Shown in pieces: positions 4,486 through 27,653 of a stretch of 41,966 nt of DNA; the first letter of the stretch is position 1; each line of letters starts with the position of its first letter. The notes under the pieces are model-generated. The model was not told where the DNA came from, made no database searches, and saw nothing but the letters and a program-made list of their open reading frames with translations. The stretch is from a virus. Position numbers and translations under genes: made by a program. Location: positions 1 to 41,966 of the IMG/VR virus record IMGVR_UViG_3300042691_005685; one strand, given 5' to 3'.

Positions 4486-6057
4486 ATGAAAAGTAATAGC
4501 CTGACGCTTGACGAAATTAAAGAAGAATTTCTTAAATGTAAAACTGATGCGGTATACTTCATATCTAAGTACATAAAAGTTTCCCACCCTAAAAGAGGGT
4601 TAGTAAACTTTGAACTTTACCCTTTCCAAAGAACAATAATTAAAGAGTTCTTTACACACAGATTTAATATACTTAGAAAGTTTAGACAAGCTGGTTGTAC
4701 TACATTGATTGCTGCTTATTCTTTGTGGCTTTGTATGTTTAATCCTTACAAGACTGTGGCTATTCTGTCTAAAGGCGAGGCTGAGTCCACAGAAATTATT
4801 GATCGTATTAAATTGATGCACGCTGAACTTCCTGCTTGGTTACAACCTAAGATTATGGAAGACAACAAGCATACATTCAAGCTAGAGAACAAATCAGTAA
4901 TCAAGTCTAAGGCTTCGGGAAAGCAATCAGGTAGATCTATTCCTGGATCATTGTTGATCTTGGACGAAGCTGCATTCATTGAGCACATTGATACAATTTG
5001 GGCTGCTGCTTATCCAATCATTTCTACTGGTGGATCTGTAATTGCTCTTTCAACTGTAAATGGTATTGGTAATTGGTTTCACAAGATGTATACTCAAGCT
5101 ATCAATGGAGAAAACAATTTTAATGCAATTGATATTACTTGGAAGGAACATCCAGAATACTTTAGACAATCAGGGTATGAGCATCTATATGAATTGATGG
5201 CAAAGTATGAACCACCAGTCAATATTGATGATTGGGAGAAGAATACTAGGGCTAACCTAAGCTTGAAAGAATGGTTGCAGGAATATGAAGCTAACTTCCT
5301 AGGAACTGGTGAAACTTACATTGACGGTGAGATCCTAAGGCAGTTAAAGAGTGACGTAAATCGTGAATACAGAATCAAATACAATAATCGTATGCGCGTG
5401 TGGAAGGATCCTCAACCGTACCACGAATATGTATTAGCTTGTGATCCGTCAATAGGCCGAGAAAGAGATTATTCAGCCTTCCATGTTATTGATCTTTATA
5501 ATGGGGAGCAAGTAGCAGAGTTTTATTCGAACCGTACCCCAATCAACGAATTTGCTAAAATTATTGTAGACGAGGGCAGACTTTATAATACGGCTTATGT
5601 TCTGAGCGAAAGAAACGGTATTGGAAATAATTTAATTTATTTCTTACAAGAAAGTTTAGAGTATGAAAATCTAGTTATGGACGATAACCGTGAGATCGGT
5701 ATGCAGATCACCCAGAAGAATAGGGAGGTCTTGTTGGCCGACATGGAGCATAATATAAGATCAAATAAAGTTAAAATTAACTCAGAAAGGCTAGTTGACG
5801 AGCTATTAACCTTTGTTATTGATAAAGATACCAATAAAATTAAAGCTGATACTAACTGCCATGATGACTTAATTATGGCTTTTGCTATGGCAATTAATAC
5901 TTTTAATAAATTAAGAGAAAATAACTTAATTGAAAGAGATACTTTAATTGATAACAGGAATATCCCACTTACCCCTATGCAGTCATATAAATATAAAGTA
6001 GTTACTGCTACTGGTAATGTAACCCTGGAAGATTATAAATGGCTAATAGGCAAATAA
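4486..6057 (+). CDS. Large terminase subunit (gp17-like packaging ATPase/nuclease, 523 aa)
   Basis: Motor of DNA packaging: ATP-driven translocation into the prohead plus headful cutting. ATPase domain: Q-motif region YPFQRTI near 45-51, Walker A-like FRQAGCTT at 66-73, Walker B LLILDE with D160 and E161, coupling motif STVNGIGNWF near 189-198. The usual Walker A lysine (T4: RQLGKTT) is Cys71 here. RNase H-like nuclease domain: ACDPSIGRERDYS with D320, SERNG with E375, and CHDD with D460/D461, which together supply the metal ligands. At 523 aa it is slightly shorter than T4 gp17 (610 aa). No small terminase was recognised nearby. The 3-prime end overlaps the portal start by 19 nt. Confidence 0.95.
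   Translation: MKSNSLTLDEIKEEFLKCKTDAVYFISKYIKVSHPKRGLVNFELYPFQRTIIKEFFTHRFNILRKFRQAGCTTLIAAYSLWLCMFNPYKTVAILSKGEAESTEIIDRIKLMHAELPAWLQPKIMEDNKHTFKLENKSVIKSKASGKQSGRSIPGSLLILDEAAFIEHIDTIWAAAYPIISTGGSVIALSTVNGIGNWFHKMYTQAINGENNFNAIDITWKEHPEYFRQSGYEHLYELMAKYEPPVNIDDWEKNTRANLSLKEWLQEYEANFLGTGETYIDGEILRQLKSDVNREYRIKYNNRMRVWKDPQPYHEYVLACDPSIGRERDYSAFHVIDLYNGEQVAEFYSNRTPINEFAKIIVDEGRLYNTAYVLSERNGIGNNLIYFLQESLEYENLVMDDNREIGMQITQKNREVLLADMEHNIRSNKVKINSERLVDELLTFVIDKDTNKIKADTNCHDDLIMAFAMAINTFNKLRENNLIERDTLIDNRNIPLTPMQSYKYKVVTATGNVTLEDYKWLIGK
5986..5993 (+). promoter_or_regulatory. Possible late promoter box upstream of portal
   Basis: TATAAATA inside the terminase gene, 46 nt before the portal ATG at 6039. 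Chance matches are expected in AT-rich coding DNA, so this rests on position alone. Confidence 0.25.
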
Positions 6058-7868
6058 GAGAAGGTTTTACTGAGTTCGCTAACCCAAACAATCCTTGGTT
6101 TAGCCCCGTAGGAACTGTAGGTAAGTTCTTTGCTAAGTTCTTTTCTTTGGGCAGATATGCTAGAAAAGAGGCTGAATTCGACCAGCAGTTAAGAGACCCA
6201 GCCCGACCAATTAAAGTAAATCCTGGTCGCCCTCTACACGGTGATGCAGTTCAGTCTAGAGATGTTATCAGGGTCACTTCAATGGCCCATAGCAAGACTA
6301 ACTATCCTATTCTACCACAAGTCGAACATGATAGAAAGAGAAGATATAGAGAATATGAGGACATGGATGGCTACCCAGAGATTGGATCAGCCTTCGATAT
6401 CTACGCTGACGATTGCTCACAGGAAAATCTAGACGGAACTAAATGGGATATCATCACTGCCGATGAAGATGCCAAGCAGGAAATAATTGATCTATTTGAT
6501 AGAATTGAATTAGATACTTATCTCTGGGATATTGTAAGAAATACAGTGAAGTATGGGGATAACTTCCTTGAGTTAGTTGTTGATATCAATGACATCAAGA
6601 AGGGTATTCAGAGAATCAAGATCTTAAATCCAAACTTCTTCTATAGAGTTGAAGACGAGTTCGGATATCTAAGTTCATTCCTTCAGGAGATTCCAAAGAA
6701 AGATAACTGGACTACTTATGGCAACGTTGGACCAAATATTGACAATAGCCAAGTAATCCCACTAGATCCAGGCCAGATAGTACACTTTAGATTGCATACA
6801 TCTGATCCAACGCATTACCCCTATGGTAAGAGTATAGCTTCTGGGGCTAGATCAATTTACAAGAGCTTGAAGATGATGGAAGACGCTATGTTGATCTATC
6901 GTCTTGCCCGCGCGCCCGAGAGAAGAATATTTTATATTGATACTGGATCTCTTCCTTCTTCCAAGGCTGAGATGCATATCAAGGAGCAGATGCATAAGTT
7001 TAAGAAGAGCAAGCTGTTCAACAAGAATACTGGCAACATGGAAGAAACCTACAATGCTATTTCAGCCGATGAGGACTTCTTTATCGCAGTAAATGGTAAG
7101 GGGTCAGGAACCAAGATCGAAACTCTTCCAGGTGCTGAGAATCTTGGCGAGGTCGATGACGTTAAGTACTTTAGAGATAAACTACTTGCGGCTCTAAAGA
7201 TTCCAAAGGATTATATTGTTGAGAAGGATCAAGCCCCAGATAGAAAGGCTAACCTTGCTCAATTGGACGTTAAGTTCGCTAGAGTTGTAACCAGAATTCA
7301 AAAAGCCATTGAAATTGGTTTAGAGACGATAGCCCATAGACACTTAATGATTAAGGGTTATCCAACTTCAGTTATTGAGAAACTTAAAATTAAGTTGCCT
7401 GCTCCTTCAGACATGGCTAGAAAGAGACAGCTTGATTTAGACCAGCAAAAAGCATTAGTTGTTGGTGCTGTTAAGAATTTAGGTATATTCCCAGTTGATA
7501 AGATATACAAAGATTATTATCAGTTAAATGATGTTCAAATAAAACAAATTAAAGATAAGCTCCAAGAAGAGATGGAAGAGCAGATGGAGCAGCAAATGGA
7601 GCAACAAAATGCCATGATGGGTGCGGCTCCTGGGATGCCTGGAATGCCTGCTCCAGGGGGCGATATGGGAGCTGGTGGGCCTCCTCCGGTCGGTGGTGAG
7701 CCTGCTGAAAACACGCCTCCAACTCAGGTAGAAAATATTAATTTAAGTGAACTTGAAACTTTACTATTGGAAAATAATGGGTCTAAGGAGTTATTAGACG
7801 TTATTAAGTCATTAAAATATAACGAAATGTATTTTAATAAAAAGATAAAGGAAACGCAGTCTAAATAA
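6039..7868 (+). CDS. Portal vertex protein (gp20-like, 609 aa)
   Basis: Forms the dodecameric ring at the packaging vertex through which terminase pumps DNA and to which the neck attaches. T4-type portal features are the YREYEDMDGYPEIGSAFDIYADD segment near residues 101-124 (key residues E105, D107-D109, P112, E113), the KYGDNFLELVV region near 168-178, and the long FRLHTSDPTHYPYGKSI / ALKIPKDYIVEKDQAP crown and wing region. The length is close to T4 gp20 (524 aa) plus a C-terminal extension. Residues about 510-570 are low complexity (Gln/Glu/Met, then Gly/Pro-rich), an unusual flexible insert before a last helical piece. It starts within the terminase 3-prime end. Confidence 0.93.
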   Translation: MANRQIREGFTEFANPNNPWFSPVGTVGKFFAKFFSLGRYARKEAEFDQQLRDPARPIKVNPGRPLHGDAVQSRDVIRVTSMAHSKTNYPILPQVEHDRKRRYREYEDMDGYPEIGSAFDIYADDCSQENLDGTKWDIITADEDAKQEIIDLFDRIELDTYLWDIVRNTVKYGDNFLELVVDINDIKKGIQRIKILNPNFFYRVEDEFGYLSSFLQEIPKKDNWTTYGNVGPNIDNSQVIPLDPGQIVHFRLHTSDPTHYPYGKSIASGARSIYKSLKMMEDAMLIYRLARAPERRIFYIDTGSLPSSKAEMHIKEQMHKFKKSKLFNKNTGNMEETYNAISADEDFFIAVNGKGSGTKIETLPGAENLGEVDDVKYFRDKLLAALKIPKDYIVEKDQAPDRKANLAQLDVKFARVVTRIQKAIEIGLETIAHRHLMIKGYPTSVIEKLKIKLPAPSDMARKRQLDLDQQKALVVGAVKNLGIFPVDKIYKDYYQLNDVQIKQIKDKLQEEMEEQMEQQMEQQNAMMGAAPGMPGMPAPGGDMGAGGPPPVGGEPAENTPPTQVENINLSELETLLLENNGSKELLDVIKSLKYNEMYFNKKIKETQSK

Positions 7869-13359: not shown

Positions 13360-14103
13360 ATGGCTAATTTAAAAGATCCTAAGGCAGAAGAAAGAGATTT
13401 AGAACTTCAGAAGTTGTTTGAGAGTGTTCCGTATGAAACTGAAATGTTTGTAGAGCTTCCGTCTAAGGGAAGATTCTACCCTAGTTTTACTGGAGTTAAA
13501 GTAATTCCGTTATTATTTGAGGATGAGCAAAAGATCCTCATGTCTAGAAATAAGAATATTAACCCAGTCAATGAGATTTTAGCCAAGTGCGTACAGGGAA
13601 TCAATATTAGCGATCTTCTAGCCATGGATAAACTTTATCTTTTAATGAAGATAAAAGAGTTATCTTATGGGCCAGAATATAAGTTTTCTGTTATTTGCCC
13701 AGCCTGTAACGTCCCCACAGACTCTGCGCTTTTAATTGAAGGTATCCCAATAAATAGAGTTCCAGATGATCTTGTTGATCCCAGAGAAGTAACTCTGCCT
13801 ATGTTAAGAGTTAAGGCTCAGATAAGATTCCCAAGAAGCTCAGACGAACAATATTTTAACACGACAGAAAACACTATTAATAATCTTTATCGTGTTGTTG
13901 TATCTCTAAATGGAAATGAGGACCCTATTTTTATCTCAAAAGCGATAAAAAAGATGCATATTAGAGATATTAAGACTATAGAAAAGGAAGTAAATAGAGC
14001 GGAATACGGAATCAGTACTAACTTCCAGTTTGACTGTCCGTCCTGCAAGCATTCAACGACATTAGCGATTCCGTTTGATGCAAATTTTTTTTCAGTGAAC
14101 TAA
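13360..14103 (+). CDS. gp26/T4_baseplate-family protein with zinc ribbon (247 aa; frame-0 product)
   Basis: The N-terminal ELPSKGRFYP near 32-41, followed by VKVIPLLFEDEQKIL, fits the T4 gp26 family (Pfam T4_baseplate, PF12322). A two-part zinc ribbon is formed by CPAC at 113-116 and CPSC at 226-229. T4 gp26 (208 aa) is named a baseplate hub subunit, though its presence in the finished baseplate is doubtful and an assembly role is plausible. The last codons run through eight T residues, creating a T TTT TTT slippery heptamer at 14085-14091 in the correct phase for -1 frameshifting. The frame-0 product ends ANFFSVN. The start ATG at 13360 is 34 bp from the divergent helicase start. Confidence 0.82.
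   Translation: MANLKDPKAEERDLELQKLFESVPYETEMFVELPSKGRFYPSFTGVKVIPLLFEDEQKILMSRNKNINPVNEILAKCVQGINISDLLAMDKLYLLMKIKELSYGPEYKFSVICPACNVPTDSALLIEGIPINRVPDDLVDPREVTLPMLRVKAQIRFPRSSDEQYFNTTENTINNLYRVVVSLNGNEDPIFISKAIKKMHIRDIKTIEKEVNRAEYGISTNFQFDCPSCKHSTTLAIPFDANFFSVN
14085..14091 (+). promoter_or_regulatory. Predicted -1 ribosomal frameshift site T TTT TTT
   Basis: Seven T residues in the phase X XXX XXX relative to the gp26-like frame: the last T of AAT, then the two Phe codons 243 and 244. After a one-base slip, both tRNAs can re-pair with TTT. The next codon in the -1 frame is TTC at 14091. The zero-frame stop follows 4 codons after the slip. I did not identify a clear downstream pseudoknot by eye. 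Confidence 0.7.
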
Positions 14104-14267
14104 GCAGTAGTTTAACTATAGATGAACTACTGTTACAAGCCTACATATTAGTTAACAAGTGTAGTTTTACTTATTCTGACGTTAAAAAGATGACTAAACT
14201 CGAAAGAGCTAGTTTTCTTAAGTTTTACGCAGATGACATAGAACGAATGAATAAGGCGAATAGCTAA
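14091..14267 (+). CDS. Frame -1 extension of the gp26-like protein (58 codons)
   Basis: An open frame with no ATG for its first 33 codons, reading FSELSSSLTIDELL, then QAYILVNKCSFTYSDV, then KKMTKLERASFLKFYADDIE, ending TAA at 14265-14267. It is reached only by -1 slippage at 14085-14091, or by a separate low-efficiency start. The fusion product would be 302 aa: 244 from frame 0 plus 58. The stop lies one base before the ATG of the next gene at 14269, the tight spacing expected if this frame is translated. The arrangement copies the G/GT tail assembly chaperone pairs of many tailed phages, which also precede the tape-measure gene. A sequencing indel in the T-run splitting one gene is the alternative. 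Confidence 0.7.
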   Translation, partial: FSELSSSLTIDELLLQAYILVNKCSFTYSDVKKMTKLERASFLKFYADDIERMNKANS

Positions 14268-14268
14268 T

Positions 14269-15201
14269 ATGTACATTAATAACATTTCTGTTAACACCCG
14301 TCACAATAAACCAACAGTTTCATCAAGAACTGCTTTATTGGCTTACTTTTATAATGACGGACAGTACAAAGACCCTGAGTCGATCAGCGCAGTCTCAATC
14401 TTCAAGTCATCTGATAACTTCTACCCAAGCTCAGTAATAGGAAGCGATGGTCAGATAAAGAATAGTGCCTCAGGATTAGTCCTGATGAACTTTGCTAACT
14501 CTGCCGCTGCGACTGATAACGTAGTCTTCAATGCTTCCAACTATTCAATTGGAGCTTCTGGAATCTACAGACTCAGAGAGGGAGTTTATGCGGTAGTCTT
14601 AGATACTAACGCTGTAAGTGCCATATTCAATCTTTCGGGAAACAACCCAATAACTAATAGGGTTGAATTGAATGGCGAGTATCTGGATGTCTGGACTGCC
14701 GAACTGAGCCAAGGAACAGACCTAACGACTCTTATAAACACATTTGAGTTAGACTACGATAGGTTCTTCTCAACTACCGAGCCGCTAATGTTTAGAGCGG
14801 CTACAAGATTAGCTAATAGACAAATTGTACTTGGCTCTAAGATTGATCTAAAGTTTACTAATGAGATTACAATAGAGAATACAAATATCGACACTTCAAT
14901 CCTAAATCTTTTCAAGCAATCATTAGTGGTAAATCCACAGCTTGAAATCTTGAAGGAGAACGTCGAAAGAAATCTACCAGCTAGAGTAACGGTATCATCT
15001 TTCAGCCAGACATCAGCCTTATGTGATGTAACCTCAGATAATACCGTTATATTTAATTGGGATACTGAAGCTCTAAAGACTCATCCAAGATTAATAGATG
15101 GAACTCTTGGATCTCTGACAGGTGCGTATTCTGCTAGAATAAAGTTTGATATACTCAATCAGACTTTCTATTCTAACATCTTCTCATTCATATTGAGTTG
15201 A
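14269..15201 (+). CDS. Probable virion structural protein (310 aa)
   Basis: A beta-rich, Ser/Asn/Thr-rich protein (MYINNISVNTRHNKPTVSSRT...) with no Cys pair motif and no membrane span; this composition is typical of tail or baseplate components. The start lies one base after the stop of the frame -1 extension of the gp26-like gene, so it is probably translationally coupled to the frameshift product. Its 3-prime end overlaps the convergent primase gene by 14 nt. Position suggests a tail or hub protein, but I do not recognise the family. Confidence 0.6.
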   Translation: MYINNISVNTRHNKPTVSSRTALLAYFYNDGQYKDPESISAVSIFKSSDNFYPSSVIGSDGQIKNSASGLVLMNFANSAAATDNVVFNASNYSIGASGIYRLREGVYAVVLDTNAVSAIFNLSGNNPITNRVELNGEYLDVWTAELSQGTDLTTLINTFELDYDRFFSTTEPLMFRAATRLANRQIVLGSKIDLKFTNEITIENTNIDTSILNLFKQSLVVNPQLEILKENVERNLPARVTVSSFSQTSALCDVTSDNTVIFNWDTEALKTHPRLIDGTLGSLTGAYSARIKFDILNQTFYSNIFSFILS

Positions 15202-16138
15202 TTGCAATAGTTAGATCATCAAGTGGTTCAACACTAAGAGCTATCTTCCTAAGGCTCTCTGAGCCTAATCTAACGTAAAGCTCATTCCAGTCCTTGCCGC
15301 CTTCAGGGACAGAGACTCCCACTTCTCCAATCTTGGCTTTGCGAGCCTCCTGAAGGAATTGCGCTGTGCCTTCTTGACCCGCCTTATCTGAGTCGTAGGC
15401 ACAAATGAGGGGGCCTCTGTAAAGACTTAGTTGCGCCATCTGCTCTCTAGACACATGGCAGCTAAGAGTCGTAGTGGCATTGAATCCACAAGCCTTAAGT
15501 GCAAGGCAATCGAACACACCTTCGGTAACAAACAGGTAGTCGAAAGAGTCGTAGTTGAATGGGTATAGAACCTGAGACATCTTAAGATTCTTGCAGTTCA
15601 GGTATTTCGGCCAAGCTTGAGGGCGCAATCCTCTGGCCTGGAAGTAGAACATCTTCCCTTGACCATTGAAGAATGGGATAATCAGCCTGTCCTTGTAGAT
15701 CCCTTCTTTGGCAACGTAGAAGTCGTATTTGCCAAGATTGCGCTCAAGGATGAACTCTGACGCTAGAGCCATCGTATAATCGTCGTAAACGCGCCCTAGA
15801 TCGACTTTCTCAAAGGACCCTGTGTCTGGTAGGGTCGTGATTATCTCCTCTTGTACGGGCTCCTGGGGCTCTTGTAGGAAGCTCTCAAACAGGAACTTCT
15901 CGTAAGCCTGCTTGTAGGTGATCCCCTCAAGCTGGGAATAGAGCTTGACGAAGTTACCTCTATTATGAGTCTTGAAGCATCTCCAAAGCCCAGACTCTAA
16001 ATTTACTGACATATGACGCTTATAGTCATCGTCTATAAATATAGAGGGAATAATAAGTTCAGTTCCGTCGCCAGATAGTCTATTATTAGCCTTAAACTTA
16101 TTTAAACAATAAGTCCTAATAAACTCTGTTCCGATCAT
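15188..16138 (-). CDS. DnaG/gp61-type primase with TOPRIM domain (316 aa)
   Basis: Makes RNA primers for lagging-strand synthesis, in T4-like phages together with the gp41 helicase. TOPRIM motifs are clear: VTEGVFDCLAL with E206, CAYDSDKAG with D249 and D251, and GKDWNE near 281-286. The length is close to T4 gp61 (342 aa). The N-terminal region aligns in shape with the primase zinc domain (SVNLESGLWRCFKTHNRGNF, 44-63) but lacks the usual CxxH/CxxC ligands, keeping only C54 and H58. The open frame continues upstream to 16279, but that extension is antisense to the nuclease gene. The ATG at 16138 (MIGTEF) or 16144 (MNMIGT) is preferred. With 16138, the two divergent start codons overlap in CATG. 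Confidence 0.85.
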   Translation of the reverse strand: MIGTEFIRTYCLNKFKANNRLSGDGTELIIPSIFIDDDYKRHMSVNLESGLWRCFKTHNRGNFVKLYSQLEGITYKQAYEKFLFESFLQEPQEPVQEEIITTLPDTGSFEKVDLGRVYDDYTMALASEFILERNLGKYDFYVAKEGIYKDRLIIPFFNGQGKMFYFQARGLRPQAWPKYLNCKNLKMSQVLYPFNYDSFDYLFVTEGVFDCLALKACGFNATTTLSCHVSREQMAQLSLYRGPLICAYDSDKAGQEGTAQFLQEARKAKIGEVGVSVPEGGKDWNELYVRLGSESLRKIALSVEPLDDLTIAINSI

Positions 16139-16961
16139 GTTCATAAATAATATTAGTGCTTCAAGAAGTGATATTATAGACCAGTGCCTCTGGAAATATA
16201 ATCTCAAATACAATCTGAAGATACCAGGATTTGGATCTAAGAATGAGGAATCTTTGAACTTCGGATCATTTATACACAAGATCTTTGAACTTGGGTATAA
16301 AGATAATGACGCTAAAGCGTTGATGAAGTTAGCTGAGTCTGAGAGGGGGACCTACAAAGTTCCTTTCGGAATGAATGATCGTATCAAAGTTTGCATTGAA
16401 AACTTTATCGTTTGGAACGGCAAACTTGGCGAGACGATCTCAACAGAGGGTATGTTTGAGGTTCCCTTAGACAAAGAGCACGATATTAAATATATCGGCA
16501 TCATCGACCGTGTAGTTAAGGGCAAGGATGGGGGTTATCTTGTAATTGACTACAAGACCTCAAAGAAAGAGAAGAAGACTAAGGATCTTTTGGATGACAA
16601 GCAGCTAATGGGTTATGCTTATGCCATCCACGAGAAATACGGGGTAGACTACACAAGTATCTGGTGTGCCCATTACTATCCCGTTACTGGCAACTTCTAC
16701 CCAGTCAGATTCTCAAAGGCTCAGATCTGGAACTGGAGGAAGAAGGAGATTGATAAGGTCTGGAGAATCCGCAAGAAGACTAAGGACGAATTCCCTCCTC
16801 AAAAGAACATCTTCTGCGATTACTGTGAGTTCCAGCCAGTCTGCCCTCATTACAGCACTCAAGAGCAAGTCTGCACGAGGCTGGAGGAACAGGTTAAACT
16901 CCGAGACGAACAGAAGAAATTAACGGAGAACAAGCCAGAAAACAAACCCGCCAATAACTAG
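16137..16961 (+). CDS. RecB/Cas4-type PD-(D/E)XK nuclease with Fe-S cysteines (274 aa)
   Basis: N-terminal SASRSDIIDQC begins the typical PDDEXK_1 fold. The active site is H47 (GSFIHKIFE), D124 (GIIDRV), D138-Y-K140 (VIDYKTS) and Q156 with GYAYA. Four Cys, C17 plus C227, C230 and C236 (C-x2-C-x5-C), match the 4Fe-4S cluster layout of AddB, Cas4 and RecB-family exonucleases. A 5-prime to 3-prime single-strand exonuclease role in recombination or repair is likely. It is not part of a CRISPR system here, since no cas genes or arrays are present. The start ATG at 16137 overlaps the divergent primase start. The 3-prime end has a Lys/Glu/Asn/Pro-rich tail that overlaps a leftward 40-aa gene by 42 nt. 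Confidence 0.88.
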   Translation: MFINNISASRSDIIDQCLWKYNLKYNLKIPGFGSKNEESLNFGSFIHKIFELGYKDNDAKALMKLAESERGTYKVPFGMNDRIKVCIENFIVWNGKLGETISTEGMFEVPLDKEHDIKYIGIIDRVVKGKDGGYLVIDYKTSKKEKKTKDLLDDKQLMGYAYAIHEKYGVDYTSIWCAHYYPVTGNFYPVRFSKAQIWNWRKKEIDKVWRIRKKTKDEFPPQKNIFCDYCEFQPVCPHYSTQEQVCTRLEEQVKLRDEQKKLTENKPENKPANN

Positions 16962-17400: not shown

Positions 17401-17865
17401 ATGTCCTACCCTGCATCAAAAAAACTTTCTGACGGTCAGATGGCCTTCCAGACTGAATTTGATGATAACTTAAAAGTAGTAGAAACTGCTGTAGCTGGTG
17501 TTATGGCAGGAGATATTGTTAGCTTTAATTATGCTGGGTCAGAACGAATTGGGCTTGTAGTTAAGTCTAGAAGAACCGATTTCTCTGGATCTTTCAGGTC
17601 CACCAGAGGAAATACCTTACTTAATGTGTTTCTTCTAGACTCAATAAGTAATTCAGATTGCAGGCTAATAATAAATACTTTGTACAGGAATCGTATTAGG
17701 GCTACTTATGTTAACAGTCCTAAAGTTTTAAGTGCTTTCTTAGGCAAGGAAAACTTTAGGACTTTTAATGCGGCTCTAATAGCAGATATCAGACTTTACC
17801 TTATAATTAACAGGGATGAGGTAAAAGAAGAAGAAGAGAAGATACCCGAAGAGGATGAATTATAA
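17401..17865 (+). CDS. Hypothetical tail-cluster protein (154 aa)
   Basis: A 154-residue protein with a likely compact beta domain (AGDIVSFNYAGSERIGLVVKSRR near 39-60; key residues D41, G48, R51, G53) and a very acidic C-terminus (KEEEEKIPEEDEL). The start at 17401 is preceded by an A-rich tract (GAAAAAAATG) and no Shine-Dalgarno sequence. The stop codon overlaps the ATG of the tape-measure-like gene (TAATGG). Position right before the tape measure suggests a tail-assembly or tail-completion protein. I do not recognise the family. Confidence 0.6.
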   Translation: MSYPASKKLSDGQMAFQTEFDDNLKVVETAVAGVMAGDIVSFNYAGSERIGLVVKSRRTDFSGSFRSTRGNTLLNVFLLDSISNSDCRLIINTLYRNRIRATYVNSPKVLSAFLGKENFRTFNAALIADIRLYLIINRDEVKEEEEKIPEEDEL

Positions 17866-19895
17866 TGGCAAACAGAGCAGATACAAATAGAGCTTTGGAA
17901 AGACTAATCTCCGCTCTTGAAGGAAATAGAAAAGCTCAATTAGGTCTCCTTAACCCACTTGAAAGTGTCGCAATGAACTTTATGAATGGGGGTCCATTTG
18001 TAAAGGCAGCCAACAGTCTTGTAGATTCTTTAGGTTCAGTAGTCAGCCCAACAAATAATTTGATGGGTGCTATGAAAGAATCAGATGAACTGCAAAAGAA
18101 GTTGCTTGGATCGAATAGCAATTTGACCACCTTCATGGATAAGAATAGTGAAGCACTAGAAGGATTAAGAGGTGGTTTATTTGATAATGCTCAAGAGCTA
18201 TTTACAAACTTTCAAGATGGATTAAGATTTAACTCTGATTCCTTGAATGTTCTTCAAAATAGAATGAGACTGACTGGACAATCAACAGATCAGTTAAGAA
18301 ATACTACCAAAACACTTTTAGGAATAACCAATAATGATATTGACGCAGTAGGAAGATTATCCAAGACAAATATGGATCTTGGAAGAACCTACATGGTCAC
18401 TAATGATAAACTATTAGAGGCTTTAGATAGAAATACTGAAGTTCTTGATTTTGCTTCCTTATTTGATGAGGGTGAGCAAACATCAGATGCGATAATGAAG
18501 CTAACTGCTCAACTTACTGATAAGGGCGTAAATGTTCAAAAGCAACAAACTATAATAAAGTTTCTAGCTGATCAAAGCATTGAGACGATGCAGATGAGAC
18601 AGAAGCTTGGCATATCTGTTGACATTTTTGATCAGATAGCGAAGGGACAAGTTTCATTAGAAGATGTTTTAGGTAGCATAAACAGCTACTCAAAACAAAA
18701 TTTAATAAGCAATAACAAAACAGCAAGTGATATAGCCTTAAAAGGATTAGGTGATGGCATAAAAGAAGTAGTCATTGCATCTAACCAAGTTGGTAATGCT
18801 TTAGGTAGATCGACTGATGATGTTAAAAAATACAGAAGTAAGGAAGATCAGTTTTATGATACATTTGAGACTTCACAAAAAGAAGCTAAAGAGTTTTATG
18901 ATAAAACAGTAACAGACTTTTATGATGTGATGAAGCCAACCCCAGAAATACTAAAAGCAATTCAAATAGGTATGCTTGGTTCTCTGGCTGGGGGTTTAAT
19001 AAAAGGTAGTGTTCAAGGTATTCAAGGAATTATTGCAAATCTCTCAGTAAAATTTAAACCATTAGATAATTTAAAGAACATAGGAATTTTAAGTCCTGCG
19101 GCACTTGCAAATCAAGCAGCTAATCAAACATCCAAATCAATGTTAGGTGGAATGGTTAGATTCCTTCCTGGCTTATTAGGCCAAGGGTTAAAATTCCTTG
19201 GACCTATTGGATTTGTCTTAGGCACTGCTTTACCGTTAATAACTGATCTCTTTTCTTCAAACAAAGAGAAAGAAGTTGATTTAAATGAAGCTACTAATGA
19301 TTTAAATAAATCAGTAGCAGAATTAAATAACAATGCTAATTATTTAAAAAATATAACTTCAGCAGATAAAGGAGTTAATATTGAAAGACAGGCAATGATT
19401 GACAATCAAAAGCAGCAGATTGAGAAAATAAATAAGTTTGTTCAATCATTACAAGACGATGGTTCTGATGAAAAATTAGTAGCTTCAATAAAAGCTGATG
19501 CAGCAAAGCATATAGCAAAATTGAATGCAATCGCTGAACAAGGTAGAAAATCTAATTTAAGCCAAAAGCAATTAGAAGATCTTAACAAGCAAGCGATGGA
19601 ATCATCTAATCAGTTTAGTAAGAGTATACAAGAAAATACTCAGATTACTGCTGAGAAGACTGCTATCATTGCAAAACCAATTGAAAAAGAGAATGAGAAG
19701 GATAAACCAGAAAAGCTAAGAACCAGCTTGGATGATATGTTAGCTCAATCTGTTGGTAGAGCTTTATCAATATCTTTACCAAAGAGTGATGGTAAGACTG
19801 AAGAGTTATTAAAAGAACTGAAAGAAGCCAATAGAGTTAGACTTCAGGTGTTAGAAGAGACAAGAAAGAGTTCTAGAGGATATATGGGTAACTAA
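17865..19895 (+). CDS. Tape-measure-like tail protein (gp29 position, 676 aa)
   Basis: A long, helical, Gln/Asn/Lys-rich protein. Two hydrophobic, Gly-rich segments lie at about residues 356-390 and 425-465 (LGSLAGGLIKG; FLPGLLGQGLKFLGPIGFVLGTALP), separated and flanked by coiled-coil-prone regions. This architecture is that of phage tape-measure proteins, which set tail length and contact the membrane during DNA entry. T4 gp29 has 590 aa, close to this size. The following gene looks like gp48/gp54, which also follow gene 29 in T4. There is no direct sequence match I can assert, so the call rests on architecture and context. Confidence 0.65.
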   Translation: MANRADTNRALERLISALEGNRKAQLGLLNPLESVAMNFMNGGPFVKAANSLVDSLGSVVSPTNNLMGAMKESDELQKKLLGSNSNLTTFMDKNSEALEGLRGGLFDNAQELFTNFQDGLRFNSDSLNVLQNRMRLTGQSTDQLRNTTKTLLGITNNDIDAVGRLSKTNMDLGRTYMVTNDKLLEALDRNTEVLDFASLFDEGEQTSDAIMKLTAQLTDKGVNVQKQQTIIKFLADQSIETMQMRQKLGISVDIFDQIAKGQVSLEDVLGSINSYSKQNLISNNKTASDIALKGLGDGIKEVVIASNQVGNALGRSTDDVKKYRSKEDQFYDTFETSQKEAKEFYDKTVTDFYDVMKPTPEILKAIQIGMLGSLAGGLIKGSVQGIQGIIANLSVKFKPLDNLKNIGILSPAALANQAANQTSKSMLGGMVRFLPGLLGQGLKFLGPIGFVLGTALPLITDLFSSNKEKEVDLNEATNDLNKSVAELNNNANYLKNITSADKGVNIERQAMIDNQKQQIEKINKFVQSLQDDGSDEKLVASIKADAAKHIAKLNAIAEQGRKSNLSQKQLEDLNKQAMESSNQFSKSIQENTQITAEKTAIIAKPIEKENEKDKPEKLRTSLDDMLAQSVGRALSISLPKSDGKTEELLKELKEANRVRLQVLEETRKSSRGYMGN

Positions 19896-20910: not shown

Positions 20911-21204
20911 ATGAATTATTTTAATCATTTAAAGATTGGTTCGAATCAATACACTCACAAGAATAAAAAAGTAGTTTCATCAATTAATTCATTTGAGATA
21001 GAGACATACTTAAATAACTTAGAGAATTTTGAATATGATATAGGAGTTGTTCCTGCTGGATTTGAGCATAGAGCAGATTTAATATCTGATGTATTTTACA
21101 ACACTCCTACATTAGATTGGTTGATTTGTTGGGCCAATAATGTGGATGATCCATTCCAGAAGTTGAATGCTGGCGATGAATTAAAAATACCTAAATTAAT
21201 ATAA
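20911..21204 (+). CDS. Baseplate wedge protein gp53-like (97 aa)
   Basis: The C-terminal half, FYNTPTLDWLICWANNVDDP then FQKLNAGDELKIP, is the hallmark of the gp53/LysM-like wedge family, in which a Y/W-rich helix is followed by (L/W)ANN(I/V)xDPF and a short beta hairpin. T4 gp53 (196 aa) joins wedges to the hub; this is a short version. A Shine-Dalgarno sequence (AAGGTGA) precedes the ATG at 20911. The stop overlaps the next start (ATAATG). Confidence 0.75.
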   Translation: MNYFNHLKIGSNQYTHKNKKVVSSINSFEIETYLNNLENFEYDIGVVPAGFEHRADLISDVFYNTPTLDWLICWANNVDDPFQKLNAGDELKIPKLI

Positions 21205-23699
21205 TGAATAACTCTTTGCCAGGAAACTTGTTTTTAACAACCTCTACAGAAGCTATAGAGTTGTTTTTAAACTTATCTGATTACAAAATAAAGTTATCTG
21301 ATTTCTCTAATAGATTGACTGAAGATCAGTTAAGAAGATCAGTTATTTGTTCGCCTTCATACAATTCAAATCTAATAGATTTTGAAATGAATTGGAATAA
21401 GGATCGACAAGGCTACACCAGTATTTTTAGATTTGTTGAGACTGGAAGTGTTTTTGAGTCACAGTTTATAGCCAAAGATTTAGTATCAGAGAGGGTGGCA
21501 GAGTTATTAACACAATCAAAAATATCTAGGGAGAATAGAGTTGATTTAGAAGGCGACGTTGGTGAGTTAATTGAAAATCCAGTTAACTCTAGAGAACTAT
21601 ATTTTACTTTTGGTGTTGGGGAAGATCTTTCAAATTGGGCTGGACCTTTCGTTGGAGTTTTAACAAATTCTGAAGTTACTTTTACTGAAAATGGGACAAG
21701 AGAAATTGTTCTTACTTTCCTTAATAATGAAGGTAAATTTTTAAGAAATGAAGTTGAGGGTCCTAATGCAAATAGATTGTATTCAGTATTAAATAAATAC
21801 GAAAGCATTTATAAAAATAGAAAAATTAATTTACAAGTTACAGATACAATATTTTTAAGTGATTTAAAAAATGAAAATATTCACATAAAACTTAAAGAAA
21901 TGTTAGTTGACTACATTGAAAGATGCGTAAGTTATCCAAGCGGTAATACAAACATAGTAGTCATCCTTCCAGACTTGGAGAAATTGTGTAAACAGTATTT
22001 TGAAAAATTTAGTGATCTGGAAAAGAATGGTGATTATGAAATGTTTTTTAGAAAATTAGGATTTAATTGTACTAAAAAATTTATTACCCCAGAGCAGGAA
22101 ATTAAAATTAAGAAACAAATGAATGATATAGAGAAACTAAAAAAACAATTAAAGCAAACAGAAGAATCTTTAAAAGTATTAGAAAACTCTAATCCTTCTT
22201 TTGGTCCAATAGGAGAGCCAGGAGAGAGGGCTGCCCGTGCTAGTGAAAATTTTGCAAGATCAAATTCTATAAAATATAACGAGGAAAACAAAAAGATATA
22301 TCAAAGAAATTTAGACGTAATCCAACAAGAGTACAAAGAAGAAATAAAGAAAGTAATATTAGAAGTAACTCTTAAGTTAGATGATGGCGAAAAATCAAGT
22401 GAATCAGAAAACACTCCAGATTATTATGTTCCATTACAAACATTCAATAATAATTTAAATGAGATGTATAAGGAACTTGAATATAATTACGACGGAGTAT
22501 TTTTAACAGAAAATGATCTTCGTGTAATATCTTTATGGAATAAAGAGATATTTAAGAACTTACCTTTAGATGATAAAAAAACTGTTTTCATATTTGGAGA
22601 CAGAAATTTAATAGAAGACTTTTTGTATGTTTCAAAAGCTGTTTCATTTAATAAAGCAGCAGATTTTGTTATCAGCAAAGAATATGTTTCAAAGTATGAT
22701 AAAGTTTATTACATAGATGGTAAAAAACTTTTTAGAGAGAAAATGTTTTTATTGAAGAGAAAAGATGTTGCAACTAACTCTTTTGATTACAACAAAAAAA
22801 ATAATAGTGAGTTTGCTTTAGACGATGATTCATTCTTTGATGACGTAACTAAAGAAATGATAAAGCTTATAGATTGTCCAATATTTAGACATAATATATC
22901 AAACCCAAATGTTCTATCTATATCAATTCAAGGGCTACCAAGCTTTGTTGATGTTTATAATGTCTTTTACAATAGGAAGAGTTTAATACCATTTATTACT
23001 GATGCAGGCAGAATAGAAGAGTATAATCCTATGGATACTGCTGGGCAGAACAGTGCGTTTTATGAACCACTTATGAAGCAAGGGTCAACAACTTTTCGAG
23101 GAAAATCTCTTTATCAAATTGTTAAAGATCAACTTGAGAAAGATAATAAGAAAAGCCCAGACATTAACAAAATATTTAGTATAATAGTGAGTCAAGGAAG
23201 TGAAACTGGCAATACTAGAGTTAAAAGAGCTATAGCTAATACTTCTGGAGTCGCTGCTGTAACTGGCTCAAATGGAGATACTAAGTTAATTCAAGTTGAT
23301 CTTTCTGATAACAAACTAGCTGCAATCTACACTATTCAAATATATAAGAAGTTGCTTCAAGAAGGTGCAGTGAATAAACCGATTGGTCCAACCTTAGAGT
23401 TCTTAAAACAACAAGAGTTAGCTTCTTTTGAAAGAGACTTATTCAACTTTTTATGTAATAAAGTTCAAAATGTTGTTATTAAAACTTTACCATGGTTTAG
23501 TATAAATGGATTCCCAGGGGATATGTCATGTATTTTACTAGGACTCCAAAATATAGCTGGCGATTTAAAAACTAAACAAAAAGCTTTGTATACTGGTGTA
23601 TATTTTATAAAAGGTTATAAACACGTTATATCGCCAACAGAAATGTACTCGGAGTTTTCTTTAGGTAGAAAATCAAACGATCTGATAATAAAGGAATAA
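21204..23699 (+). CDS. Large baseplate hub-like protein (831 aa)
   Basis: The N-terminal part is beta-rich (FEMNWNKDRQGYTSIFRFVE near 54-73). There is a coiled coil at about 297-335 (KIKKQMNDIEKLKKQLKQTE) and a second helical stretch near 365-400, then a mixed alpha/beta C-terminal half. It lies between gp53-like and the gp5-like spike. T4 gp27, the trimeric hub that binds gp5, is 391 aa, and in several phage groups the hub is an enlarged protein directly upstream of the spike. A hub role is therefore inferred from position and the beta-rich N-terminus, not from a recognised domain. Codon use is the most AT-rich of the structural genes. Confidence 0.45.
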   Translation: MNNSLPGNLFLTTSTEAIELFLNLSDYKIKLSDFSNRLTEDQLRRSVICSPSYNSNLIDFEMNWNKDRQGYTSIFRFVETGSVFESQFIAKDLVSERVAELLTQSKISRENRVDLEGDVGELIENPVNSRELYFTFGVGEDLSNWAGPFVGVLTNSEVTFTENGTREIVLTFLNNEGKFLRNEVEGPNANRLYSVLNKYESIYKNRKINLQVTDTIFLSDLKNENIHIKLKEMLVDYIERCVSYPSGNTNIVVILPDLEKLCKQYFEKFSDLEKNGDYEMFFRKLGFNCTKKFITPEQEIKIKKQMNDIEKLKKQLKQTEESLKVLENSNPSFGPIGEPGERAARASENFARSNSIKYNEENKKIYQRNLDVIQQEYKEEIKKVILEVTLKLDDGEKSSESENTPDYYVPLQTFNNNLNEMYKELEYNYDGVFLTENDLRVISLWNKEIFKNLPLDDKKTVFIFGDRNLIEDFLYVSKAVSFNKAADFVISKEYVSKYDKVYYIDGKKLFREKMFLLKRKDVATNSFDYNKKNNSEFALDDDSFFDDVTKEMIKLIDCPIFRHNISNPNVLSISIQGLPSFVDVYNVFYNRKSLIPFITDAGRIEEYNPMDTAGQNSAFYEPLMKQGSTTFRGKSLYQIVKDQLEKDNKKSPDINKIFSIIVSQGSETGNTRVKRAIANTSGVAAVTGSNGDTKLIQVDLSDNKLAAIYTIQIYKKLLQEGAVNKPIGPTLEFLKQQELASFERDLFNFLCNKVQNVVIKTLPWFSINGFPGDMSCILLGLQNIAGDLKTKQKALYTGVYFIKGYKHVISPTEMYSEFSLGRKSNDLIIKE

Positions 23700-23700
23700 A

Positions 23701-24924
23701 ATGGAAGTAAAGTTTGAAATAGGAGTTGTAACTGATGTACAAGACATTTATAAACATTTTAATTTTACAGTTGAAATAGAGGGTGGCGAAAAGACATCAG
23801 TAATTTACACATCTCCATTTTTCTTTTTTGGAGGAGGCGGGCAATTAACTCCTCCAAACATAGGATCAAAAGTAATAGTAATGTTTGATAAGGTAAAAAA
23901 ATTCTATTACTATGTCTCTACAATTGTTGGGATGACAAATCCAGATTGGATCTATGACCCATCATTAAAAGTTTTACCCTTAACTGCGGACCCAACAATT
24001 TATACCGATAAGAATATTCCACAGAAAGTTAATTACACTAATGAGATTGGATCTGGATTAAAAATATCTAGAAAAAAATTAAGAAAGTATATTGACGCTA
24101 AAGTTGAGTTGAAGAGTGAGTTTGGTAAAAAAATTGCTCTAGTAGACTCACCAACGAATAGTCATGTTTTGATGAGAAATGAACATGGCGACGGTATAAG
24201 AATTATATCCCACGATTGGCTGGCTGGCACAACTGGATATCCTCATCCCATATATCCAAGTAGGTCAATAATTGTATTCTCCAAAGGCCCACAGTTTTAT
24301 ACAACTACTAGGGGTCTGATGGATATGAAGGTTGTTGATGGGACTGAATTTAATATCCAAAACTATTCTACTGGAGCATTCGGCCCGTCCGAGTATGAAG
24401 CTCCTCCAGTACAATCCTCATCTACAGATGTTCCTCTAATACCAAGAAATAAAGATTATTCTTCAGCTAGAATAGGAAATATTAACATTAGAAGTGTAAA
24501 CTCAGATGTTAATATAGCGGTTAATGGGACTGAGAGTGAGATATATATTACTACACCAAAGGCTAGAGTTGAGATCAGAGAGGATGGAACAGTTTTAATC
24601 CACTCTGCTGCAACTATTAACTTAAGAGCTGATGGTGATATCACAATGAAATCTAATAATGGTAGCATAAATATGGAGGCTGGCGGAGGGTCTATAAATC
24701 TGAAATCTTCCTCTAACTGCAACATCCAGTCTGGTTCAGAAGTTAATATTAAATCTTCTGCTGCTCTTAATACTCAAGCTGGTGGAGAACTGAGCTTAAA
24801 GGCAGGAGGTAATTGTAATGTTGATGGAACTCAGATACATTTAAATTCTGGGTTCTCTACAGATGCTGGGGATGCTGCAACTCCAAGACAAATAGATATA
24901 CAGAGAAACGCATACGGTGAATAA
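23701..24924 (+). CDS. gp5-like central spike protein, no lysozyme domain seen (407 aa)
   Basis: An OB-fold-like N-terminus at about 5-80 (GVVTDVQDIYKHFNFTVEI...GSKVIVMFDK) and a C-terminal triple-stranded beta-helix at about 258-386. The helix has repeated INL, ITM, INM, INL, CNI, VNI, LNT, LSL and CNV turns spaced about 8 residues apart, as in T4 gp5 and VgrG spikes. The trimer would sit under the hub and puncture the outer envelope. T4 gp5 (575 aa) carries a lysozyme domain between the two; here the middle (about 85-255) shows no recognisable lysozyme motif. AAGGA precedes the ATG at 23701. The stop overlaps the next start (ATAATGG). Confidence 0.82.
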   Translation: MEVKFEIGVVTDVQDIYKHFNFTVEIEGGEKTSVIYTSPFFFFGGGGQLTPPNIGSKVIVMFDKVKKFYYYVSTIVGMTNPDWIYDPSLKVLPLTADPTIYTDKNIPQKVNYTNEIGSGLKISRKKLRKYIDAKVELKSEFGKKIALVDSPTNSHVLMRNEHGDGIRIISHDWLAGTTGYPHPIYPSRSIIVFSKGPQFYTTTRGLMDMKVVDGTEFNIQNYSTGAFGPSEYEAPPVQSSSTDVPLIPRNKDYSSARIGNINIRSVNSDVNIAVNGTESEIYITTPKARVEIREDGTVLIHSAATINLRADGDITMKSNNGSINMEAGGGSINLKSSSNCNIQSGSEVNIKSSAALNTQAGGELSLKAGGNCNVDGTQIHLNSGFSTDAGDAATPRQIDIQRNAYGE

Positions 24925-27653
24925 TGGCACTATTCGACACTAAGACATTTTTTTATAACGCTGGTCGTGGTGAAAATCCTACGACTGCTTTAGGTTCTGC
25001 ATTCGGAATGCCTTACTGTTTAATCAGCTTAGGTGAAGACCTTCTCAGTCTCTTACCAAGAAGCGTTCTTGACCCAATGAGGAGATCTACTCAAGATGGT
25101 GTGACAGCCGCCGATGATTCTATTAAATCTGCTTTAGCTTCTCTTGGATTTCTTGACGGTATCATTGAATACGATACTGAAACTGGATCCTTCAGACTGG
25201 TCTCAGACTCCTCTAGAAATGGCCTAGATCGAAACGACAGCGACGATCTCAACTCAGTTGGTGGCTTCCTAGGGGCCGCATTTCAAGCCGCTGCATTTGC
25301 TGGAAGATTATACAATAACTATGAAACAACAGTGAATCAAATAAATGCTATTAGTGATTGTATTCAATCCTATAGTGATTATTTAAATTACACGGGTGGA
25401 GCAAAAGCAAGCCAAATATCAAGACTAGATCCTGATGAGTATGAAGAGTTGTTTAGAAAGTATGATATACTTAAAAAGGATATAGATGAGGCTACAAGAT
25501 TTAGAGATCAAGCTCTGGGCTTACTTCAAACTATTGATAGCATCCTAGACGAAAGAGAACAAGATCCCACTTTAGAGCCAGTATTCTTGGCCGACTTCTC
25601 ATCAATTGTTTCAGGTGCAAACGTACTGGTCGAACCTCTTCCAGCCCCTGAAAGCATTGAAGAAATAATTAGATTGAAGTTTGGTCCTCCTATCTCAAAG
25701 ACTGGTAAATTTATTTTGTCTGTAGATGGATTGTATTATGATTCGCAAACTAGCGGTATAGTACCAGTTTTAATTGAGATAGAAAATAGAAAGTCTAATC
25801 TACAAAATAATGCTTTATGGAGATTGGATTTCGATTCAAACTTAGGTGGAAGAGGAAAGCAATTAAGTTTAGAGAGCTTAAAGTCTTACATTGACACAAT
25901 ACTGGATCCAAACATAGTAAATGAGTCTAACTTTATTAGACAGTATTATGATAAGGATGAAATTTTAGGAGAGATTGTAGGGCAAAAGAATAGAAGAGTA
26001 TTTGATCTTTCCTCTCAGATAGTTGAGTTACAGGAGCAAGAAGTATCAGAAATTTTAATTTCTAATATGAGACAAGTAATGTTGTCTGAGGCTTCTCATT
26101 ATCAACAAAAAATTAATAAGAGAAAGAAACAGATAGAGTTGGCTGTTTTAATGCCATCAATCTATAAGAACGAGATTATCTACAATCCTGGTGATGAGAT
26201 ACCAGTAAACGATTTCTCTTACTTACAAGGAATAAATTATAAGTTAGATATTGAAAAACAAAAGAGTCTCGTCCTAAGCCAGAATGAAGTATCAGGAGTT
26301 GTTCTTCCTGTAGCTGTTAAGTATGTTCAACAATTAGATCAGCCAGAGAGAATTATACTTGACCATTTATTAATTAATAATATAGGAATAGGTGCTGTAG
26401 TAGCTGATGGATCGGGGCTTATGGCACCTGAATTAACATTAACAGATACGATAGAAAAAAACGAATTACTCGCGCTTTATAACTTTTTAAAATTTGATAT
26501 AGTAGAGCCTTCATCTACTTTATTTAAATTAAATAATTCTTCTGATTTTAGCACGAGAATGGATGCTCAATTAGTAGGCACATCAGAAAATAACATATTT
26601 AGCAAGGGAGTTGGAATAGCTTACTTAGAAGGGATTACTAAACACTCTGCAACCCAAACAACAGTCCCTAGTGGGATAGGAAGCTATGTAAGACTGCCAG
26701 AACAAAAAGAATTACAAGATTTACTTTACAACAAAAATGGAGCAACATTTGAAGCTTGGGTGTATACGCCAGGGCTGGATAGTGAAGTAAATGGCTTTAA
26801 CAGTAATGGTGTTTCTAGCTTGTATAGACTAATATTAGCAAATGAAAACACTGGCCTACAAAACACTTCTCAGCAACAAGCTGACATATTAAAAATAAAA
26901 AATCAAAGTGATTCAAATGCTTGTAAAGGAATAATTTTTGGATTTACAAGAGATCGTAGACTTACAAAAGATCAAGACCCATCTAACAATTCATCAGATA
27001 ATAATATTGATGATACTTGTTTAGTTTTAGCACCAACTCAATCATTTAATTCATCTAGCGTTGGTTTTATTAATAAATCCTACGATATAACTAATTCTTG
27101 TTTTGGGGTTAGCAGTATATGGTATTCAATGAGGCATCCAGTTAGTGCAGTTGTAAATGGAGTATCATTGTCTGCGTGCAACAATCAATTTTGCCAGATA
27201 ACTTTAACTTTAGATCCAATACAAAATAACATTAGTTTATATTGTGATGGACAACTTCTTACTACCTCAAGTTATAATGAGGTCTTTGGAATAAATCCAA
27301 TAAAGAATTATGTTAACATTCCAACATTGAAACTTAATAATTCATTTGAGTATAATAGATCTTCGATGTCTTCTGTCAATGTCCCAGAGCTAAAAGCTGG
27401 ACCAAAGTTAGACCAGTACTTTACTCCTTGGATAGTTGGGGGAGGATATACAGATGGTATGCAAACTGGTAATTTTATGGGTGGACAGTACGGTGGAATT
27501 ATAAGTGGTTTAAGAGGATTTATTGGTGGATTAAAATTTTACTCAAAACCTCTTTCAAACATTCAAGTTTTGAAAAATTTCAATGCATCTAAAAACTTCT
27601 TTAAGAATATTGACATACCTTCATTAAACTGGGAACCAATTATAAGTGAGTAA
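24924..27653 (+). CDS. Large baseplate/adsorption protein with LamG-like C-terminal domain (909 aa)
   Basis: The N-terminal 250 residues are helical (LISLGEDLLSLLPRSVLDP...), the middle has coiled-coil-like stretches (EVSEILISNMRQVMLSEASH), and residues about 605-890 look like a concanavalin A/LamG-type jelly roll (GATFEAWVYTPG, then QITLTLDPIQNNISLYCDGQ, then GFIGGLKFYSKPLS), a common sugar-binding module. In T4-like cyanophages a large protein called VrlC sits between gp5 and gp25; the position agrees but I cannot confirm homology. A role in adsorption or as an outer baseplate protein is inferred. Only 3 nt separate it from the GH5-like gene. Confidence 0.55.
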   Translation: MALFDTKTFFYNAGRGENPTTALGSAFGMPYCLISLGEDLLSLLPRSVLDPMRRSTQDGVTAADDSIKSALASLGFLDGIIEYDTETGSFRLVSDSSRNGLDRNDSDDLNSVGGFLGAAFQAAAFAGRLYNNYETTVNQINAISDCIQSYSDYLNYTGGAKASQISRLDPDEYEELFRKYDILKKDIDEATRFRDQALGLLQTIDSILDEREQDPTLEPVFLADFSSIVSGANVLVEPLPAPESIEEIIRLKFGPPISKTGKFILSVDGLYYDSQTSGIVPVLIEIENRKSNLQNNALWRLDFDSNLGGRGKQLSLESLKSYIDTILDPNIVNESNFIRQYYDKDEILGEIVGQKNRRVFDLSSQIVELQEQEVSEILISNMRQVMLSEASHYQQKINKRKKQIELAVLMPSIYKNEIIYNPGDEIPVNDFSYLQGINYKLDIEKQKSLVLSQNEVSGVVLPVAVKYVQQLDQPERIILDHLLINNIGIGAVVADGSGLMAPELTLTDTIEKNELLALYNFLKFDIVEPSSTLFKLNNSSDFSTRMDAQLVGTSENNIFSKGVGIAYLEGITKHSATQTTVPSGIGSYVRLPEQKELQDLLYNKNGATFEAWVYTPGLDSEVNGFNSNGVSSLYRLILANENTGLQNTSQQQADILKIKNQSDSNACKGIIFGFTRDRRLTKDQDPSNNSSDNNIDDTCLVLAPTQSFNSSSVGFINKSYDITNSCFGVSSIWYSMRHPVSAVVNGVSLSACNNQFCQITLTLDPIQNNISLYCDGQLLTTSSYNEVFGINPIKNYVNIPTLKLNNSFEYNRSSMSSVNVPELKAGPKLDQYFTPWIVGGGYTDGMQTGNFMGGQYGGIISGLRGFIGGLKFYSKPLSNIQVLKNFNASKNFFKNIDIPSLNWEPIISE

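Follow-up and report, generated by a model that had tools for sequence, protein, structure and literature searches.

The gene that begins at position 13360 of the window, the whole 41,966-nucleotide stretch of viral DNA that was analysed (IMG/VR record IMGVR_UViG_3300042691_005685), very probably encodes a tail assembly chaperone of a contractile-tailed phage, which is made in a short form and, through a −1 frameshift near its end, in a long form. As judged from sequence, the gene carries a slippery site and a conserved −1 frame, its product is homologous to gp26 and gp51 of phage T4, and the fusion is colinear with T4 gp51; that the slip takes place in the cell, with what efficiency, which partners the products bind and that they act as chaperones is what we infer. 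The original prediction of a −1 frameshift in a tail-assembly-chaperone-like gene is supported, slip phase and −1 frame being conserved.

Slippery Site and Predicted Products

The frame-0 open reading frame (13360–14103, plus strand) specifies the putative short, G-like chaperone of 247 amino acids and closes with GCA AAT TTT TTT TCA GTG AAC TAA, the stop codon TAA being at 14101–14103. Its run of eight T residues (14085–14092) contains a heptamer T TTT TTT at 14085–14091 (plus strand; codons Phe243–Phe244) in the phase that a tandem −1 slip requires. After the slip, reading restarts at 14091 and runs through 58 codons before it meets the stop codon at 14265–14267, which lies one base before the next ATG at 14269, so that the extension covers 14091–14267 (plus strand) and the fusion has 302 amino acids. 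All this had been predicted from the letters and was borne out by translation, as was the lack of a usable early start, the first ATG, GTG or TTG being found 33 codons into the extension. T_TTT_TTY in −1 phase occurs only once in the 34 genes of the window (12,741 codons), namely 7 codons before the stop of the gp26-family gene, and the chance of 53 open codons in random DNA of the window's composition is p = 0.017.

In the mechanism that we propose, the majority of the ribosomes would stay in frame 0 and produce the 247-aa protein (G-like, gp26-like). In a minority, the two tRNA-Phe in the P and A sites would move back by one base from TTT TTT and pair anew in the −1 frame, so that the TAA is passed over and the 302-aa protein with its extra helical domain results (GT-like, gp51-like).

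A possible stimulatory hairpin with a 12-bp stem and an 8-nt loop is found at 14103–14134 (plus strand), 11 nt past the heptamer (RNA fold −14 kcal/mol, z −2.6), and is also present in some relatives. It is a weak candidate because there is no consensus RNA structure downstream of the heptamer across the window clade. In this clade, controls taken 60 nt downstream have a folding of about the same quality, and a stimulatory RNA structure is not claimed.

Conservation of Site and Frame

Scans of IMG/VR yielded 54 distinct loci of the window type and 78 distinct loci of the cyanophage type; these loci share ancestry, and the counts that follow are not counts of independent events. T_TTT_TT[T/C] stands in −1 phase in all of them (54/54 and 78/78), the heptamer lies 6–12 nt from the end of the frame-0 stop codon (132/132), the −1 extension is 55–69 codons long (132/132), and in none of the 132 loci is the heptamer replaced by an out-of-phase T run. 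The alignment of relatives that had been proposed as a check on the T-run phase and the −1 frame has come out opposite to the result that had been named as speaking against the frameshift. In a set of 135 loci, obtained with a slightly different redundancy filter, the first Phe codon of the slip site is always TTT and always preceded by a codon that ends in T; in the rest of the gene, TTT makes up 71% of the Phe codons. The substitution rates in the window-clade extension are 0.195, 0.114, and 0.371 at the three positions of the −1-frame codons, a pattern which is a coding signature and which therefore argues that the extension is translated.

Protein Family, Fold and Gene Neighborhood

The assignment to the gp26 family was confirmed with PF12322 (E = 1.9e-16, 60.9 bits at a cut-off of 24.5, residues 31–238) and phrog_150 (2.5e-21). 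AlphaFold2 models the short form with a pLDDT of 90 and the extension as a helical unit with a pLDDT of 89. Residues 24–105 (13429–13674, plus strand) form a domain which VIA-align superimposes on solved tail assembly chaperones: ranks 1 and 2 of 448 PDB chains were YqbN (3klu; Z 6.0, rmsd 3.5, 79 residues aligned) and the HK97 tail assembly chaperone (2ob9; Z 5.2, rmsd 3.4, 74 aligned), both with modest Z-scores, a result that leans toward the fold of these chaperones. YqbN we take to be an XkdN-like prophage protein. Between C113xxC116 and C226xxC229 (13696–14046, plus strand) lies a zinc-ribbon-like part, with cysteines that are invariant in five homologues and with LysW/ZitP-like matches. 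Foldseek found no match to the frame-0 model in the PDB at E ≤ 0.001. With the extension alone, VIA-align returned only pyrin domains (Z 2.2), the phrog scan gave no useful match, and BFVD gave cyanophage Gp51 and tail assembly chaperone matches at E 0.2–2.7, which are too weak by themselves.

The window protein, with its short and its predicted frameshift-extended form, resembles the tail assembly chaperones of lambda (gpG/gpGT) and HK97 (PMC5009743), and the HK97 protein is its second-best structural match. It differs from both in that there is no detected sequence similarity and in that the gp26 family bears the added zinc-ribbon-like part. By analogy with lambda, many short and few long copies may coat the tape measure protein, the extra domain may recruit the tail tube or hub, and both forms would then leave the finished tail.

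The lambda chaperone genes directly precede the tape measure gene. Beside the window gene no tape-measure gene is recognisable: the next gene is a 310-aa open reading frame, and a tape-measure gene was recognised in the window neither by Pfam nor by PHROGs. In Listeria phage LIS04 and Flavobacterium phage immuto the chaperone homologue has the tail tube gene on one side and the tape measure gene on the other; T4 itself does not strictly fit this position. Large open reading frames of the contractile-tail module of the window are at 14269–15201, 17865–19895, 21204–23699, and 24924–27653. It may also be mentioned that a primase-like open reading frame (15188–16279, minus strand) overlaps, as called, one for a PD-(D/E)XK nuclease (16137–16961, plus strand) by about 140 bases, and that the primase-like frame may have been given a TTG start too far upstream.

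Relation to T4 gp26 and gp51

Over its full length, PF12322 is matched by T4 gp26 as well as by T4 gp51; on the longer phrog_150 profile, gp26 spans positions 10–236 and gp51 positions 3–281. Going by these alignments, the two are paralogues; the end of gp26 coincides with the slip point, and gp51 has the extension in frame. The proposal that the T4 pair may be a split version of the frameshifted gene held only in part: T4 does have a short and a long chaperone from two genes, but gp51 is a complete paralogue with an in-frame extension. A model in which gp51 supplies the missing half was rejected, since gp51 holds the entire gp26 domain. The window short form corresponds to gp26 and the long form to gp51, all belonging to the same family (PF12322, phrog_150, phrog_634); the difference is that T4 has two divergent genes, 26 and 51 being on opposite strands, and gene 26 lacks a slippery site at its end, whereas the window has one gene with a predicted −1 frameshift.

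The one-gene arrangement with T_TTT_TTY and a −1 extension was found in 12 of 17 reference phages of the T4 superfamily. In the other five (T4, RB49, RB43, 44RR, and Acj9) two genes are present, the gp26 gene lacks the heptamer at its end, and gp51 contains the extension joined in frame to the gp26 domain. Of the twelve, S-PM2, P-SSM2, HTVC008M, phiM12, Aeh1, B23, Cr30, and Aeromonas phage 65 are those in which the match to phrog_150 is split over overlapping frames; in syn9, KVP40, DLP6, and pf16 the extension was detected with phrog_634. P-SSM2, S-PM2, syn9, KVP40, Aeh1, phiM12, Cr30, DLP6, and pf16 share with the window a single gene in which T_TTT_TTY precedes the stop and is followed by some 60 codons of −1 extension. 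The cyanophage-type proteins are, however, only 17–22% identical to the window protein, their stop codon usually ends 6 nt past the heptamer instead of 12 nt, and some of their extensions, unlike that of the window, have an ATG just inside.

The T-even gp26 proteins reach no further than the slip column of the alignment; beyond it, gp51 and all fusions have the pattern YS..I..M.P.ER in common. The profile search against gp51 that had been suggested as a check gave E = 1.5e-6 (hhalign, window-clade extensions versus T-even gp51 C-termini), and that of cyanophage extensions with the T-even C-termini gave 3e-10. The window extension is homologous to the C-terminus of T-even gp51 and colinear with it behind the gp26 domain. 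Several gp51 and gp26-linked extensions outscore all of 5000 shuffles. With the HMM of the window-clade extension, gp51 of RB49, 44RR, and RB43 exceed the best shuffles; gp51 of T4 (5.7 bits) and Acj9 (6.4 bits) do not. A tree of the gp26 domain, in which T-even gp26s cluster with gp51s (92/94; moderately supported, with some long branches), is consistent with one duplication in the T-even lineage.

In Escherichia phage RB43 a single strand bears both paralogues one behind the other, the long form coming first (L261, 64625–65912), unlike in T4, RB49, 44RR, and Acj9, in which the pair is divergent. Aeromonas phage Aeh1 is said to lack gp51 (PMC3037559); a gp51-like extension is present there in the −1 frame after gp26 (L069, region 118822–119070). 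A small open reading frame behind gp26 that is annotated as a gene of its own in Synechococcus phage B23 (L035, 5652–5816) most likely represents the chaperone's C-terminal extension in the shifted frame.

Variants with a Possible Change of Shift Direction

In some relatives, namely SP-15 (L017), LIS04 (L016), GXN1 (L020), LR756508 (L019), BRock (L023), immuto (L033), Mel-JY01 (L034), and a large environmental clade (the L006 clade), the extension lies in the +1 (= −2) frame, as it does in the loci L006–L014 and L268–L347. The L006 clade has a +1-frame extension in 67 of 68 distinct loci, and nearly all of those inspected have a site of the type TTT TTT Tnn CCT (L313 has TTC TTT). Against the HMM of the −1/gp51 extensions, those of BRock and Mel-JY01 beat all of 4000 shuffles; the other +1/−2 extensions are marginal and two are at the level of noise. 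On balance we lean toward one chaperone family with three routes to the long form: a −1 frameshift in the window and the cyanophage type, an in-frame fusion in a duplicated gene in T4 and its relatives, and a +1/−2 frameshift in the environmental clade. If this is true, the shift has changed direction at nearly the same codons within one family, for which we have found no earlier description.

Small open reading frames behind gp26 that are annotated as separate genes in SP-15 (6728–6847) and immuto (5821–5931) are, too, most likely shifted C-terminal chaperone extensions. The distant jumbo-phage relatives PA5oct (L021), Atu_ph07 (L022), and LR756511 (L018) have TTTTTTC in −1 phase and an open −1 extension with no frameshift annotated; their extensions have no detectable similarity to the others.

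Alternative Explanations

Runs of seven to eight T residues are long enough for transcriptional slippage in some systems, and such runs are present in the window and in about half of its clade (TTTTTTT in 28/54). It could therefore be thought that the fusion arises from RNA polymerase slipping on T8 rather than from the ribosome. The remaining 26 of the 54 loci and all 78 of the cyanophage type have six T followed by C, which is a poor transcriptional and a good ribosomal slip site, and the phase rule of T_TTT_TTY is kept, so that we consider this very unlikely. That the −1 frame is a small gene of its own, started independently or by stop-start coupling as the annotation of cyanophage "gp51" implies, would agree with the ATG found 1–4 codons into the extension in some cyanophages and with the separate gp51 annotated in B23. 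In the window clade, however, the first possible start codon never comes before codon 12 of the extension and mostly at codons 20–33, and it is for want of an early start that the extension is not regarded as a separate gene there; syn9, Aeh1, and HTVC008M lack an early start as well. Since a separate gene would also leave the conservation of the heptamer unexplained, and the extension is continuous with the gp26 domain in T4, RB49, 44RR, Acj9, and RB43, this reading is hardly credible. A homopolymer of eight T and a contig that is identical at this place and may not be independent (L001) could finally bring to mind a sequencing or assembly error or a decayed gene. Dozens of divergent contigs, as well as isolate genomes, show the same break, phase and downstream frame, and T6C takes the place of T8 in many of them; by this conservation in the compared genomes error and decay are already refuted, and what probability they retain is next to nil.

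A different objection accepts the frameshift and takes its products for structural parts of the baseplate hub rather than for tail assembly chaperones. Databases indeed label the family as baseplate hub, and genetic studies cited in PMC3004832 put gp26 in the T4 hub. The same paper itself, however, counts both gp26 and gp51 among the hub assembly chaperones and describes gp51 as required yet absent from the particle (PMC3004832), the best structural matches are folds of tail assembly chaperones, the gene positions in LIS04 and immuto speak for a chaperone, and the 2022 paper discussed below assigns T4-like chaperone genes, as far as it is reported in later work. We consider a structural role unlikely, and prefer the short and the long product as chaperones.

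Previous Work and Implications

It had been assumed in the original prediction that no frameshift was described for the T4 gp26/gp51 setting. This is out of date: by the accounts given in PMC10885494 and PMC12846349, the 2022 Virology paper by Vladimirov, Gautam and Davidson (doi 10.1016/j.virol.2021.11.003) reports short and long chaperone genes of T4-like phages as well as polyT −1 signals, and the window gene is similar in these points. The paper on PRFect sums that work up to the effect that some T4-like phages, rather than frameshifting, carry a gene for the short chaperone and another for a fused long one (PMC10885494). Because the T4-like chaperone genes were identified there, as far as these two accounts go, the interpretation of T4 is not new but has been known since 2022, and the window is a divergent new example of a known mechanism.

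Two older puzzles find an explanation. A review of 2016 singled out T4 as departing from the scheme of a frameshifted tail chaperone that is otherwise widely conserved (PMC5009743), and a survey of 2010 noted, and left unexplained, that the gp51 proteins of cyanophages reach just some 20% of the length found in other gp51 (PMC3037559). T4 gp51 would be the long chaperone as a gene of its own, and the cyanophage "gp51" no more than the frameshifted end piece. Since the part on T4 was published in 2022, the gain lies mainly in breadth and in the correct annotation of many genomes. The natural pairs of one-gene and two-gene phages could, moreover, be used to test why some lineages have swapped slippage for gene duplication.
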